From positions 1,922,001 through 1,986,000 of the forward strand of contig NZ_CP036246.2 of assembly GCF_004299785.2 (NCBI RefSeq): 64,000 nucleotides of DNA, in the 5' to 3' direction. Origin of the DNA: Arcobacter porcinus (GTDB lineage: Bacteria; Campylobacterota; Campylobacteria; Campylobacterales; Arcobacteraceae). Position numbers and translations under genes: made by a program. Each line of letters starts with the position of its first letter. Position 1 is the stretch's first letter. A model generated the notes under the pieces. The model was given only the letters and a program-made list of their open reading frames with translations, was not told the DNA's origin and searched no databases. Of this stretch, positions 19,110-41,527 are shown piece after piece.

Positions 19110-19724
19110 GTGTTTACAGGACTTATAAGAGAGATGGCAAAAGTTGTTAGTTTCTCAAACAATATTTTAACCCTAAAAGCAAATTATTCTCCAAAAATCG
19201 GCGATTCTATTGCAGTAAATGGAGCTTGTTTAACTGTAATAAAAATTTCAAATGATACTTTTAGTGTTGAGTTATCTCCTGAAAGTACAAGCTTACTTGC
19301 TTTGGAAAACTATAAAAACTTTGTACATATAGAACCAGCTATGCAAATGGGTGATAGATTTGAAGGACATATTGTTCAAGGACATGTTGATTGTATTGGA
19401 ATTATTGAAAAGATAGAAACAAAAGGTAACTCAACAGATTTTTATATAAAAGTTCCAAATGAGTTTATAAAATATATGATAAACAAAGGAAGTGTTGCAA
19501 TTGATGGAATATCTTTAACTATAAATGAAGTGTTTAAAGACTCTTTTAGGCTTACAATTATTCCTCACACTATAAATAATACTCTTTTTAAAAACTATAA
19601 AATAAACTCAAGAGTAAATATAGAAACTGATATGTTTGCTAGATATATTTTTAATATGTTTAAGAAAAATGATAAAGATAATTTAACTTGGGAGAATGTA
19701 GATAGAATAATGGCTAATTACTAG
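19110..19724 (+). CDS. ribE: Riboflavin synthase alpha subunit
   Basis: Dismutates two 6,7-dimethyl-8-ribityllumazine molecules to riboflavin. Begins MFTGLI, typical of the family, and shows two lumazine-binding halves, with VNGACLTV and IDGISLTINE. 204 residues. Start is GTG, after AAAGGTTTTTTAA. No FMN riboswitch fits in the short upstream region. Confidence 0.95.
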   Translation: MFTGLIREMAKVVSFSNNILTLKANYSPKIGDSIAVNGACLTVIKISNDTFSVELSPESTSLLALENYKNFVHIEPAMQMGDRFEGHIVQGHVDCIGIIEKIETKGNSTDFYIKVPNEFIKYMINKGSVAIDGISLTINEVFKDSFRLTIIPHTINNTLFKNYKINSRVNIETDMFARYIFNMFKKNDKDNLTWENVDRIMANY

Positions 19725-19736
19725 CCATTATTTAAA
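19706..19736. terminator. Hairpin between convergent ribE and mgtE
   Basis: AATAATGGCTA and TAGCCATTATT form an 11-base stem with a five-base loop that includes the ribE stop. The T tracts are interrupted, so efficiency is uncertain. Confidence 0.6.
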
Positions 19737-19740
19737 TTTA

Positions 19741-21117
19741 TTAAGCTGGAATATCTAATATAGAAGTTGCTATTGAGAAAAATATCAATACCCCAACAGC
19801 ATCTGTTATTGAAGTAATAAGTGGCGAACTAGCTGATGCTGGGTCTAGTTTAAATTTACTTAATAAAAATGGTAAAGACATTCCAACAATACTTCCAAAC
19901 ATAACTATAAAAATCATTGACAAAGATACTACTAAAGCTATCTCATATCCACCTCTAAAAATCCCCACAAAAGATACAGCAAAAGCCATAGTTAATCCAA
20001 GCAAAGTTGCAATCATCAACTCTTTTCCTAGCATACCAGCCCAATCTTTTAAATTTATATCTCCTGTTGCCAAAGCCCTAACAGTTAATGTAGCAGATTG
20101 AGATCCTGCATTTCCTCCACTTCCAATAAGTAATGGTAAGAAAAATACAAGTGCAATATATGCTGAAATTGTATCTTCAAAATATGCTATTCCTGCACTT
20201 GAGAAAATATTTCCAAATACTAAAATCACAAGCCAATATATTCTTTTTTTATATAGTGTTGAAATTGCTGCATCTTTTATACTTGTTAAAACACCTGTAT
20301 TTCCATGTTTACTTACTTCAACACTTGTACCACTCATTTTTTGGAAATCTTCTTCAGCTTCTTCTATTGCAACATCTATAACGTCATCATAAGTGATTAT
20401 TCCCACAAGAATATTATTCTCATCTACAACAGGAGCAATAAGTAAATCATAATCTTGAATTACTTTAACACAAAATTCTACTGGATCACTAGCTTTTAAA
20501 GAGATAGGATTCTTTCTCATAAAATCTTCTATTAAACTATCTGGCTCTGCCATAATTAAAGACTTTAAAGACACACTTCCTACCAACTCTCTATTTTCAT
20601 TTATAACAAATGTTTCATAAATAGACTCTATATCTCCAGCAATCTTTCTTAGATATGAGATTGATTCCAATGCATTCATATTAGCTTTCAAAGTAGCATA
20701 ATTTGATGTCATAATTGAACCAATTACATTCTCTTCGTATGATGATAATTTTATTATGTCTTCTTGCTCTGCCTTAGTCAAAATAGGTAAAATTCTATCT
20801 TGTAATGTTTCTGACATTATGTTAAATAAGTCAGCTCTTTCATCGCTTGGCATCTTTTCAAAAAGCTCTTTTATCATTGTTCTATCCATAAAATCAAGGA
20901 TAGTTAATTGCATTTGCTCATCTAAATATCCAAATAGCTCTGAACTATTTTTAAGTGGCATTAATGATATGAAATTGAATACTTCTTGAGGCTTCATCTC
21001 TTCAAAAGCTTCTTTTAAATCTACTGGATATGTATTGTGTAAGATTTTTACAATCTCTTTTTTACTTCTATTTTCTATAACATTGTGAATGCTAGAAATT
21101 AACTCTTTTTTATTCAT
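19741..21117 (-). CDS. mgtE: Magnesium channel MgtE
   Basis: Mg2+-gated inner-membrane magnesium channel. Order: N-terminal helical superhelix domain (ERADLFNIMS, residues about 1-130), CBS pair (about 135-255), and five C-terminal helices including the pore-lining GSGGNAGSQSATLTVRALATGD-type segment. I start it at the ATG at 21117, preceded by GGGG seven bases upstream, giving 458 residues; an in-frame ATG at 21129 has no ribosome site. Its 5' region holds a probable leader ORF and long-range stem (see 21284-21355), suggesting regulation by magnesium. Confidence 0.93.
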   Translation of the reverse strand: MNKKELISSIHNVIENRSKKEIVKILHNTYPVDLKEAFEEMKPQEVFNFISLMPLKNSSELFGYLDEQMQLTILDFMDRTMIKELFEKMPSDERADLFNIMSETLQDRILPILTKAEQEDIIKLSSYEENVIGSIMTSNYATLKANMNALESISYLRKIAGDIESIYETFVINENRELVGSVSLKSLIMAEPDSLIEDFMRKNPISLKASDPVEFCVKVIQDYDLLIAPVVDENNILVGIITYDDVIDVAIEEAEEDFQKMSGTSVEVSKHGNTGVLTSIKDAAISTLYKKRIYWLVILVFGNIFSSAGIAYFEDTISAYIALVFFLPLLIGSGGNAGSQSATLTVRALATGDINLKDWAGMLGKELMIATLLGLTMAFAVSFVGIFRGGYEIALVVSLSMIFIVMFGSIVGMSLPFLLSKFKLDPASASSPLITSITDAVGVLIFFSIATSILDIPA

Positions 21118-21235
21118 ATTTTGCCCCATATATGTTTATATAATTTACAATAGTTAAGTATTATATTGATTACAATCTATAATTAGATTTTTAAGATTAT
21201 CATACAAAACTATCAACATTGGCTTAAACAATTTA

Positions 21236-21326
21236 CATGAAGTTTTAATGATTATAAGATTTTTTAAGGTTTATATTAAAAGTTTAAATACTCAAATTTA
21301 TATTAATCATAAAATAAAACTTCATG
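21236..21326 (-). promoter_or_regulatory. Interrupted inverted repeat in the mgtE leader
   Basis: On the minus strand CATGAAGTTTTA plus ATGATTA, separated by TTTT (21326-21304), is matched by TAATCAT directly followed by TAAAACTTCATG overlapping at the shared T (21254-21236): 12 and 7 base pairs with a four-base bulge and a 49-base loop. The 5' arm lies within the leader ORF from its codon 10 onward, so a translating ribosome would open it. A short partner of the 3' arm at 21199-21210 could form a competing stem. No T run follows, so this is not a plain intrinsic terminator. Confidence 0.6.
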
Positions 21327-21355
21327 AATCTACTCTGACTACTATCTGAATCCAT
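21284..21355 (-). CDS. Probable 23-residue leader peptide upstream of mgtE
   Basis: Short ORF of 23 codons with a strong Shine-Dalgarno, AGAGGAG five bases before ATG. The peptide begins MDSDSSQSRFMKF and ends NINLSI, with acidic residues at positions 2 and 4. The ORF lies in the 304 bases between mreC and mgtE, 166 bases before the mgtE start. Its 3' two thirds form one arm of the inverted repeat described separately. Enterobacterial mgtL is a leader ORF of similar size and acidic start (MEPDPTPLP) controlling a magnesium transporter; there is no homology beyond that theme. A function in magnesium sensing is inferred, not shown. Confidence 0.6.
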   Translation of the reverse strand: MDSDSSQSRFMKFYFMININLSI

Positions 21356-21370
21356 TTCCGCTCCTCTTAT

Positions 21371-21408
21371 GAAATATTTAATTTTGCCGTAGTTTAGAAA
21401 AATATTTC
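21371..21408 (-). promoter_or_regulatory. Hairpin just before the leader ORF ribosome site
   Basis: GAAATATTT and AAATATTTC are nine-base inverted repeats with a 21-base loop, ending two bases before the AAGAGGAG site. It may be part of a promoter or an mRNA hairpin. No terminator is visible between mreC and the leader, so readthrough from mreC is possible. Confidence 0.3.
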
Positions 21409-21433
21409 TTAATTTTTAATTAATAGGCTATTT

Positions 21434-22198
21434 TTACTCATTTATAGTTTGATATGTATAGAAATATCTTTTTGTAAGTGGTTTTGCATAAGGTTCAATA
21501 TATGCCACTTTCATATCTGGATACTCTTTTATATCAACAACTTTTCCTACTCTTACACCTTCATAAAAGATATTATCAAGACCTGAAGTTATAACTTCAT
21601 CTCCTAAGTTTACTTTTGCCCAAATAGGTATAAATTTAACAGATAATAATCTTTCATCACTATCATTTGACATCACAATTCCAGAATTTCTATCATTTCC
21701 TACAAAAACAGCATAAGAACAATCTTTGTTTCCATTTAATAATCCTACGCTTTTACCTTGCTTATTTAAAGCAATTCCAGCAGCATAATTTTCTGATATA
21801 AGTCCTACAATTTCATCATCCAATTTTTTATCTATCCAAACTGTTGTAAAATCATCAAATTTTACATATGATAAAACTCTTACTATATCAATTTTTGCAT
21901 TTATACTAGGAAGTTCTACATTTATCAAAAATTCTCTCAAAGAGTCTATTTTTGAAGTTGTAGATTCATATAGGATTTTGTACTCTTTTAACCGTAAATT
22001 CTCTTCTTGTAACTTCTTTATAAGCTCTTCATGAGAAAAATGATCTTTTACTTTTTGTGATAATTCTATATAACTATTTAAATAAGATTTTTTTATCTCT
22101 GCAAAAAATCTAAACTGTTTTGAAATATATTCATCTATTTCAAATAAGTATAATAATCCTGCAAAGATAAATAGAGATAAAAAAAGAAATCTTTTCAT
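21434..22198 (-). CDS. mreC: Rod shape-determining protein MreC
   Basis: Bitopic inner-membrane protein of the elongasome. It has one N-terminal membrane helix (residues 1-20), a coiled coil (about 45-85) rich in Glu and Lys, then the two-lobed beta domain, with VGLLNGNKDCSYAVFVGNDR and LGDEVITSGLDNIFYEGVRVG typical of MreC. 254 residues. It lies seven bases after mreB. No mreD is visible; the next gene is the mgtE leader. Confidence 0.92.
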   Translation of the reverse strand: MKRFLFLSLFIFAGLLYLFEIDEYISKQFRFFAEIKKSYLNSYIELSQKVKDHFSHEELIKKLQEENLRLKEYKILYESTTSKIDSLREFLINVELPSINAKIDIVRVLSYVKFDDFTTVWIDKKLDDEIVGLISENYAAGIALNKQGKSVGLLNGNKDCSYAVFVGNDRNSGIVMSNDSDERLLSVKFIPIWAKVNLGDEVITSGLDNIFYEGVRVGKVVDIKEYPDMKVAYIEPYAKPLTKRYFYTYQTINE

Positions 22199-22205
22199 CT
22201 AGTTT

Positions 22206-23243
22206 TTAATTTTTCATCTCTTCAATAATTTTTAATAATTCTGGTTCATCAAGAACTTGACTTGTTCCATATGCAACAGAAAGTAGTGGTTCATCTGCAA
22301 TTTTTACAGGTATTTTTACAATTTCCGATAGATATTTATCTATTCCTCTAATTAATGCTCCACCACCTGTTATTATAATTCCATTATCTACAACATCTCC
22401 TGCTAAATCAGGTGGCATATTTTCTAATACACTTCTAATTGCTGAAGCTATCTCTTTTAGAGGTTCTTTTATAGCAATTCTTACACCTTCACTACCTAAT
22501 TCAATAGTTGAAAGATACCCTGAATGATCTTTTCCTTTTATTTGGAATTTTAATTCTGGGTCAAGTTTTGAAGCAGCTCCAATAGCTATTTTAATATTTT
22601 CTGCTGTTCTTTCACCTATGAAAAGATTATAGTTTTGTCTTACATATTCAACAATAGATCTATCTATTTTATCTCCACCAACTTTAACTGATTTACATAA
22701 AACTAATCCACCTAAAGATGTAACACCAATTTCAGTTGTTCCTCCACCAATATCAACAACAACGTGTCCATCTGGATCAGAAACAGGAATTCCAGCTCCA
22801 ATAGCAGCTGCCATTGGCTCTTCTACTAAGAAAACCTCTCTAGCTCCAGCACTCATAGCTGACTCTTCAACTGCTTTTCTTTCAACTTGTGTAATTCCAT
22901 AAGGAATACAAATAATTACTCTTGGTCTAATAAATGATTTTCTTGAATGTGCTTTTTCTATAAAATATCTAATCATTCTTTCAGTCATTTCGAAATCTGC
23001 AATAACTCCATCTTGCATCGGTCTTACCGCTTGAATATTTAAAGGAGTTTTTCCAAGCATTCTTTTTGCTTCTTGACCAACAGCTAATATTCTATCTTTT
23101 CCTTGTCTATCAACTTGTACAGCTACAACTGAAGGTTCATTGATAATTACACCTTTTCCTTTAACACTAACAATAGTATTTGCAGTTCCCAAATCTATTG
23201 CCATGTCATTTGAAAATATTCCTATTAATTTATCTAAAATCAT
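22206..23243 (-). CDS. mreB: Rod shape-determining protein MreB
   Basis: Actin-like filament protein directing lateral wall growth. ATP-binding motifs are visible: AIDLGTANTIV (phosphate 1), VVDIGGGTTEIGV (phosphate 2) and IIITGGGALIRGID (adenosine). 345 residues is standard. It begins four bases after clpX and lies in the lpx-clpX-mre gene string. Confidence 0.97.
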   Translation of the reverse strand: MILDKLIGIFSNDMAIDLGTANTIVSVKGKGVIINEPSVVAVQVDRQGKDRILAVGQEAKRMLGKTPLNIQAVRPMQDGVIADFEMTERMIRYFIEKAHSRKSFIRPRVIICIPYGITQVERKAVEESAMSAGAREVFLVEEPMAAAIGAGIPVSDPDGHVVVDIGGGTTEIGVTSLGGLVLCKSVKVGGDKIDRSIVEYVRQNYNLFIGERTAENIKIAIGAASKLDPELKFQIKGKDHSGYLSTIELGSEGVRIAIKEPLKEIASAIRSVLENMPPDLAGDVVDNGIIITGGGALIRGIDKYLSEIVKIPVKIADEPLLSVAYGTSQVLDEPELLKIIEEMKN

Positions 23244-40558: not shown

Positions 40559-41527
40559 TTATATCCACTTATTTCTTTTAAATAATAAAAATTGAAAAAC
40601 AACAACACAAACTAAAATAACACTAAAAATCAAAAAAGCATTTTCATTTGACGAACCAGGAATTCCACCTACATTTATTCCCAAAAGTCCTGTTAAAAAA
40701 GTAAGTGGTAAAAATGTTGCTGAAATAATTGCAAGCATATACATCTTTTTATTTATATCTTCACTAAGCCTATTTCTTAGCTCTTCTTGAATTAAAATTA
40801 CTTTATCTCTAATTGTATCAAGCTCTTCAATATGTCTTATTAGTTGATCATTTGTTTCTCTTATTTCAACTCTTTGATATTCATCTATCCAAGATATTTT
40901 CTCATTTGAAAGTTTAATTAATGCCTCTTTTTGAGGAGATAAATATCTTTTCAAAACAATAGATTCTCTTCTTATTTTTAATATCTCATTTCTAAATTCA
41001 AGGCTTTTTAAATCTATTATATTCTCTTCTAAATAGTCCGTTCTATCTTGTATTTGCTCAATAGTATCATCCATTCTATCAATCATTTTATATGTAAGCT
41101 CTACTAAGAATTGAGAAGAACTTTTAACTCCAATACCATGTTTAAGCTCATCAATAATCTCTTCAACGGATAAAATCATCTCTTTACTTGTAGATATAAT
41201 AAGATTTTCTGAAATATAAAGCCTAATTGATTTCATATCTTCTGGATTTGCATCTGCATCAAGATTTACACCTCTTAAAGATAGAAGTAAATTATCTTTT
41301 AAAACTATCATTCTAGGTCTTGTTTCATCTGCTAAAAGTGCATCAACAGCTACATCTTCTATTCCACTTCTATTTGATATCCAATTTATTGCATCGTTTT
41401 TTGTATAATCAAAATGTAGCCACAAAAGATTATCACTATTTTTATATTCACTAATCTCTTCAATTCTTATCTCTTTTGCAAAAGATTTTTTATCTAATAC
41501 AAATCCTCTAAATGATTCTATCTGCAT
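40559..41527 (-). CDS. CorA-family transporter, ZntB-like
   Basis: 322 residues: cytosolic alpha/beta domain, long helices (about 140-260), and two C-terminal membrane helices. The loop signature is GINVGGIPGS instead of the CorA GMN with acidic follow-up; E. coli ZntB has GVN and GGIPG. This suggests a ZntB-type proton-coupled zinc transporter more than a magnesium channel. It follows yaaA by three bases and is likely cotranscribed. Confidence 0.8.
   Translation of the reverse strand: MQIESFRGFVLDKKSFAKEIRIEEISEYKNSDNLLWLHFDYTKNDAINWISNRSGIEDVAVDALLADETRPRMIVLKDNLLLSLRGVNLDADANPEDMKSIRLYISENLIISTSKEMILSVEEIIDELKHGIGVKSSSQFLVELTYKMIDRMDDTIEQIQDRTDYLEENIIDLKSLEFRNEILKIRRESIVLKRYLSPQKEALIKLSNEKISWIDEYQRVEIRETNDQLIRHIEELDTIRDKVILIQEELRNRLSEDINKKMYMLAIISATFLPLTFLTGLLGINVGGIPGSSNENAFLIFSVILVCVVVFQFLLFKRNKWI

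Follow-up and report, generated by a model that had tools for sequence, protein, structure and literature searches.

A leader upstream of mgtE in Arcobacter porcinus as a candidate ribosome-operated translational switch

In translational attenuation of the erm type, the position of a ribosome on a leader open reading frame (ORF) decides whether the downstream ribosome-binding site (RBS) is sequestered. Magnesium transporter genes, including mgtE, are controlled in other bacteria by the M-box (ykoK) riboswitch (RF00380). In the MgtL leader peptide, Glu2 and Asp4 of the EPDP motif lead to ribosome drop-off at low Mg2+ and consequently to expression of mgtA (PMC11282234). Here, we describe a leader preceding mgtE in Arcobacter porcinus, in which the control principle known from enterobacterial magnesium genes may be realised in a new version.

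The window, which is the whole stretch of 64,000 nucleotides analysed, belongs to a genome of 2.02 Mb in one contig. Its minus strand carries clpX, mreB, mreC, the leader and mgtE in this order, and the gene of riboflavin synthase converges from the opposite side (clpX, mreB and riboflavin synthase being names which we assume from our own reading). The start of mgtE is probably the conserved ATG at 21117; an in-frame ATG further upstream, at 21129, is not kept in the relatives and was rejected. At the other end of the module, TAAACT at 21396-21391 is a candidate -10-like element of a putative promoter. An ORF of 33 amino acids on the opposite strand (21248-21349, plus) is open in the relatives too, shows no Shine-Dalgarno (SD) sequence and is taken as a by-product of the conserved DNA. 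The features of the locus are collected in Table 1.

Table 1. Features of the mgtE leader region, in window positions.
Feature	Position	Strand	Basis
mgtE, magnesium transporter	19741..21117	-	NCBIfam TIGR00400 equivalog, 356.6 bits against a cut-off of 232.75; start ATG 21117 by alignment
mgtE RBS region, proposed partner of the anti-RBS strand	21124..21136	-	SD GGGG at 21127-21124 and upstream bases
Bridging stem, 3' side	21148..21160	-	Invariant pairs
Bridging stem, 5' side (8+3 pairs), overlapping 21199-21210	21203..21215	-	Invariant pairs; seen in most ensembles but less in G014
Anti-RBS strand CUUCAUGUAAAUU, made up of the 3' part of arm 2 and its flank; proposed OFF-form partner of 21136-21124	21230..21242	-	10-13 of 13 standard pairs in four species; ribosome-dependent in folding
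Arm 2, partner of arm 1 in the proposed ON form	21236..21254	-	Folding and pair conservation
Arm 1 (12 nt, TTTT bulge, 7 nt), inside leader ORF codons about 10-18	21304..21326	-	Folding; invariant
Leader ORF, 23 codons, MDSDSSQSRFMKFYFMININLSI, acidic residues at positions 2 and 4	21284..21355	-	ORF reading and codon comparison
Leader ORF SD, AGGAG	21361..21365	-	Read from sequence; invariant in four species
5' edge of the conserved module	21391..21425	-	Interspecies similarity begins here despite differing upstream sequence

Like mgtL of mgtA and corL of corA, this leader places a short ORF ahead of a Mg2+ transporter gene, here conserved and furnished with its own SD, and its peptide shares with theirs the acidic residues at positions 2 and 4 (PMC11282234, PMC11552253). 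It is also alike in that translation of the leader selects one of two exclusive RNA forms, which are here predicted, and in that early failure of the ribosome would be expected to switch the transporter on. The transporter, however, is MgtE and not the P-type ATPase encoded by mgtA or CorA, and the phylum is another; moreover, the peptide is longer (23 amino acids), its motif is without proline, no RNA family match is detectable for the leader, and the output is probably mgtE translation rather than Rho-dependent termination.

With the erm type, the leader shares the predicted sequestration of an RBS according to the ribosome position on the leader ORF. In contrast to that type, three strands instead of four would decide the state, an early ribosome would free the RBS because an arm inside the ORF captures the anti-RBS strand, and the target is a Mg2+ transporter with no link to antibiotics. 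The M-box differs in that the RNA fold is the sensor, whereas here the proposed sensor is the ribosome; the RF00380 covariance model gives no match in the leader at the gathering cut-off or at E <= 5, and the leader matches no other Rfam family. Classical trp-type attenuation requires an intrinsic terminator as one of its alternatives, and the leader contains 0 sites of this kind. In the open-library literature, searches combining mgtE with leader peptides, or Arcobacter with mgtE, returned nothing on such a system.

Both mgtE and the leader DNA occur in the same 4 of 31 congeneric species, namely that of the window (G000) and three relatives (G026, G014 and G012), and both are absent from the other 27. 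The MgtE proteins of the relatives are 88-90% identical to that of the window, and the leader DNA matches in the mgtE carriers reach E values of 5e-67 to 1e-90; in the 27 congeners without the leader, the best DNA matches are short and AT-rich. The similarity between species starts sharply at about 21425. Upstream of this edge, two species have mreC next to the leader; the other two have riboflavin synthase in between, one of them together with a transporter gene. A covariance model of 137 positions, searched against 299 genomes of the order, matches strongly in only the four species; besides these there are three weak matches (27.7-29.5 bits), none of which adjoins mgtE. Since the neighbour of the leader varies and the strong matches are limited to the four carriers of mgtE, the leader belongs to mgtE and not to mreC, and we hold with high confidence that it is a functional element of mgtE. 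As to more distant copies, a scan of genome contigs found MgtE loci of only 30-33% identity, from other phyla, and a search of the phylum yielded one further MgtE (41% identity), with no leader ORF in its upstream gap of 120 bp.

CorA-type transporters are present throughout the genus, usually two per species, apart from one incomplete genome that yielded none. The mgtE gene is therefore additional and dispensable, which fits conditional expression. Several observations were made alongside. In the window, a CorA-family transporter gene (40559-41527, minus) directly follows another gene without a leader, so that it does not share the arrangement of mgtE. A distant MgtE-like protein (29% identity) is encoded beside a CorA-family gene in two congeners (L005, L006). 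Between mreC and mnmG (19110-23243 in the window), the order is mreC, mgtE, riboflavin synthase in two species and mreC, riboflavin synthase, mgtE in two. Downstream of mgtE, all four species have the near-palindrome AATGGCTAGTAATTAGCCATT (19709-19729), whose copy in the window codes for the C-terminal residues of the converging riboflavin synthase and which persists in G014 and G012 though riboflavin synthase lies elsewhere there. It may represent a shared terminator or a trace of rearrangement.

Among codons for conserved, degenerate residues, synonymous variation affects 0 of 18 in the leader ORF versus 143 of 353 in mgtE (Fisher p = 2e-4). The leader ORF is thus under a constraint on its nucleotides that goes beyond the protein it encodes, and variable positions are more numerous in every 23-codon window of mgtE. 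The non-coding arm 2 with its flank (TCATTAAAACTTCATGTAAATTG) is likewise invariant in the four species.

The preliminary description of this DNA had reported a stem between codons of the leader ORF and the gap downstream, and folding recovers it: 21326-21315 pairs with 21236-21247 in 12 perfect base pairs and, beyond a TTTT bulge (21314-21311), 21310-21304 pairs with 21248-21254 in 7. Taken from the window sequence alone, the stem is weak evidence and modestly above chance, as a Watson-Crick helix of at least 12 bp arises in 10 of 300 dinucleotide shuffles of the window leader (about 3%), and the minimum free energy gives z-scores of -0.57 (whole leader) and -1.59 (stem region). The stem stands out because all 12 pairs of its first block are invariant in the four species, while third positions of mgtE codons for the same residue differ by 10-25%; the second block holds 6 bp in the three relatives as opposed to the 7 of the window. 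A search for compensatory changes, the absence of which had been put forward as a refutation, found no pair with a change on both sides; among four close sequences with invariant arms almost nothing varies, and covariation thus neither proves nor disproves the stem.

We folded each leader with a 30-nt ribosome footprint placed at successive codons. In the construct including 45 nt of mgtE, a ribosome with codons 2-5 in its P site leaves arm 1 paired with arm 2 at a probability of 0.91-0.99 in the four species. With the ribosome on codons 8-16 this probability falls to 0.00 and arm 2 moves to the mgtE RBS, whose SD is 96-100% paired in all four species (0.00-0.04 unpaired); in a shorter construct, up to 0.23 of the SD is unpaired with the ribosome in mid-ORF. 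The closed state holds across 25-37 °C and across footprint sizes. The geometry leaves little room: arm 1 begins at ORF nucleotide 30, immediately past the stretch covered by a ribosome whose P site holds codon 5, and it starts to come free again from codons 18-20 onward. It pairs again when the ribosome waits at the stop codon, so that the OFF state requires frequent ribosome traffic.

The open state is more heterogeneous. With an early ribosome, accessibility of the SD ranges from 0.08 to 0.61 across species, and with an empty leader it is just 0.23 in G000 and 0.37 in G026; the SD of G012 opens mainly with an empty leader, that of G000 most with an early ribosome. When the columns of the alignment from the ORF stop to the SD are permuted so that relatedness is preserved, 0 of 219 permuted alignments reach the observed change in SD accessibility (0.386 versus -0.044 +/- 0.084), and 0 of 208 do so when arm 2 is kept fixed and its surroundings alone are permuted. 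Dinucleotide shuffles of single species match the switch in 3/321, 1/322 and 0/321 cases. The model thus predicts that translation of the leader selects between two mutually exclusive RNA forms, in one of which the position of the ribosome on the leader ORF would sequester the downstream RBS in all four species.

The preliminary description had seen in this region an attenuation-like geometry, in which the first stem cannot form under a ribosome translating the ORF but can once a ribosome leaves early. Constrained folding in four species agrees with this part; the competing partner of arm 2 was misassigned and is predicted to be the mgtE RBS at 21136-21124. The strand originally proposed, 21199-21210, pairs with arm 2 (21254-21236) at a probability of 0.00-0.06 in every ribosome state, the second block of that pairing is not conserved in G014 and G012, and the strand belongs instead to an invariant 11-pair stem with 21160-21148. 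The anti-RBS strand, in turn, forms 11 (G000), 10 (G026), 13 (G014) and 12 (G012) standard pairs of 13 with the RBS region, although the RBS side has itself diverged between species. When about 225 windows of the leader are compared for pairing with the mgtE start region, the best one shares positions with arm 2 in each of the four species. The affinity of arm 2 for this start is just moderately special compared with other gene starts in the window, of which 3, 10, 0 and 3 out of 45 equal or exceed it in the four species, and the claim consequently rests on the combined evidence.

We propose, with slightly more confidence than doubt, that the leader from about 21425 to 21117 acts as a whole as a ribosome-operated translational switch for mgtE. 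Arm 1 would lie in codons 10-18 of a strongly initiated 23-codon ORF. In the ON form, arm 2 would pair with arm 1 and leave the mgtE RBS free; in the OFF form, the 3' part of arm 2 and its flank would lie on the RBS, the invariant bridging stem bringing the two strands together. A ribosome on about codons 7-17 would mask arm 1 and thereby permit arm 2 to cover the mgtE SD, while a ribosome that pauses or is lost at the first codons (Asp2, Asp4) would allow arm 1 to take up arm 2. If low Mg2+ favours such early failure, as in enterobacterial MgtL, the transporter would be made when Mg2+ is scarce. This magnesium step is tentative, and we judge it somewhat less probable than its opposite. The leader peptide carries Asp2 and Asp4, a combination of acidic residues at both positions found in 0 of 46 long ORFs of the window; their match to the positions of Glu2 and Asp4 in MgtL is a lead, not a test. 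We infer the structures in vivo, the translation of the ORF, the direction of regulation and Mg2+ as the signal.

A more specific version, which we regard as conceivable but rather doubtful, treats the ORF as a decoy. Its codons would imitate the mgtE RBS (AUGAAG...UUUUAUGA compared with AUGGGG...AAUAUGA in mgtE), and one antisense strand would be common to the decoy and the true RBS. Ribosomes traversing the ORF would shut mgtE off and their loss at Asp2/Asp4 in low Mg2+ would turn it on, which would amount to an mgtL-like Mg2+ sensor that works without Rho and arose independently in another phylum. By eye, we also observed that UCAUAARA, which runs into the leader SD (21363-21370), is complementary to UUUUAUGA in arm 1 (21308-21315) in all four species. 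Through this pairing an empty leader might hide its own SD, and in G000 it may constitute a third state.

The translational switch has to be weighed against other readings. Transcription could be attenuated by Rho in the manner of Salmonella mgtA and corA; full translation of the leader would then expose a rut site in the untranslated stretch 21283-21130 and early ribosome loss would refold the RNA and hide it. Rho is encoded in the genome, and the leader is free of intrinsic terminators: no terminator-like site was found, in keeping with the missing T run noted in the preliminary description. MgtL and CorL also share the same polarity of control (PMC11552253, PMC11282234). Termination by Rho would, however, leave unexplained both the complementarity of the released arm to the mgtE RBS and the closure of the SD in all four species with a mid-ORF ribosome, and we consider it unlikely. 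Of the three outputs offered at the outset, namely Rho, RNA stability and translation, the sequence points to mgtE translation, although polarity or control by Rho could still operate, given that the genome encodes it.

To a similar degree improbable is that the same RNA switch responds to a signal other than Mg2+, such as translation capacity, an amino acid or tRNA, an antibiotic or arrest of the nascent peptide around RFMKFYF. The geometry of the switch is set by ribosome positions alone and the acidic motif is short and lacks proline, which would accommodate such signals, but the leader is linked to a Mg2+ transporter gene wherever it occurs, and its ORF has no run of any single codon. Still less probable, in our view, is that no switch exists and that the leader is kept for another reason (a promoter, an sRNA, protein binding or recent transfer), its pairs being chance in AT-rich sequence. 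The four sequences are close and show no covariation, a 12-bp helix arises in about 3% of shuffles and the folding energy is ordinary; against this stand the permutation nulls and a leader ORF far more conserved than the synonymous sites of the adjacent mgtE that travels with it.

If the proposed switch is real, Mg2+ sensing via ribosome instability on an acidic leader peptide would not be peculiar to enterobacteria. The same solution would have arisen independently, for another family of transporters and with an output that is probably translational. The switch would also offer a short and testable case: since arm 1 starts at codon 10, just beyond the edge of a ribosome at codon 5, the pause or drop-off would have to precede about codon 6.
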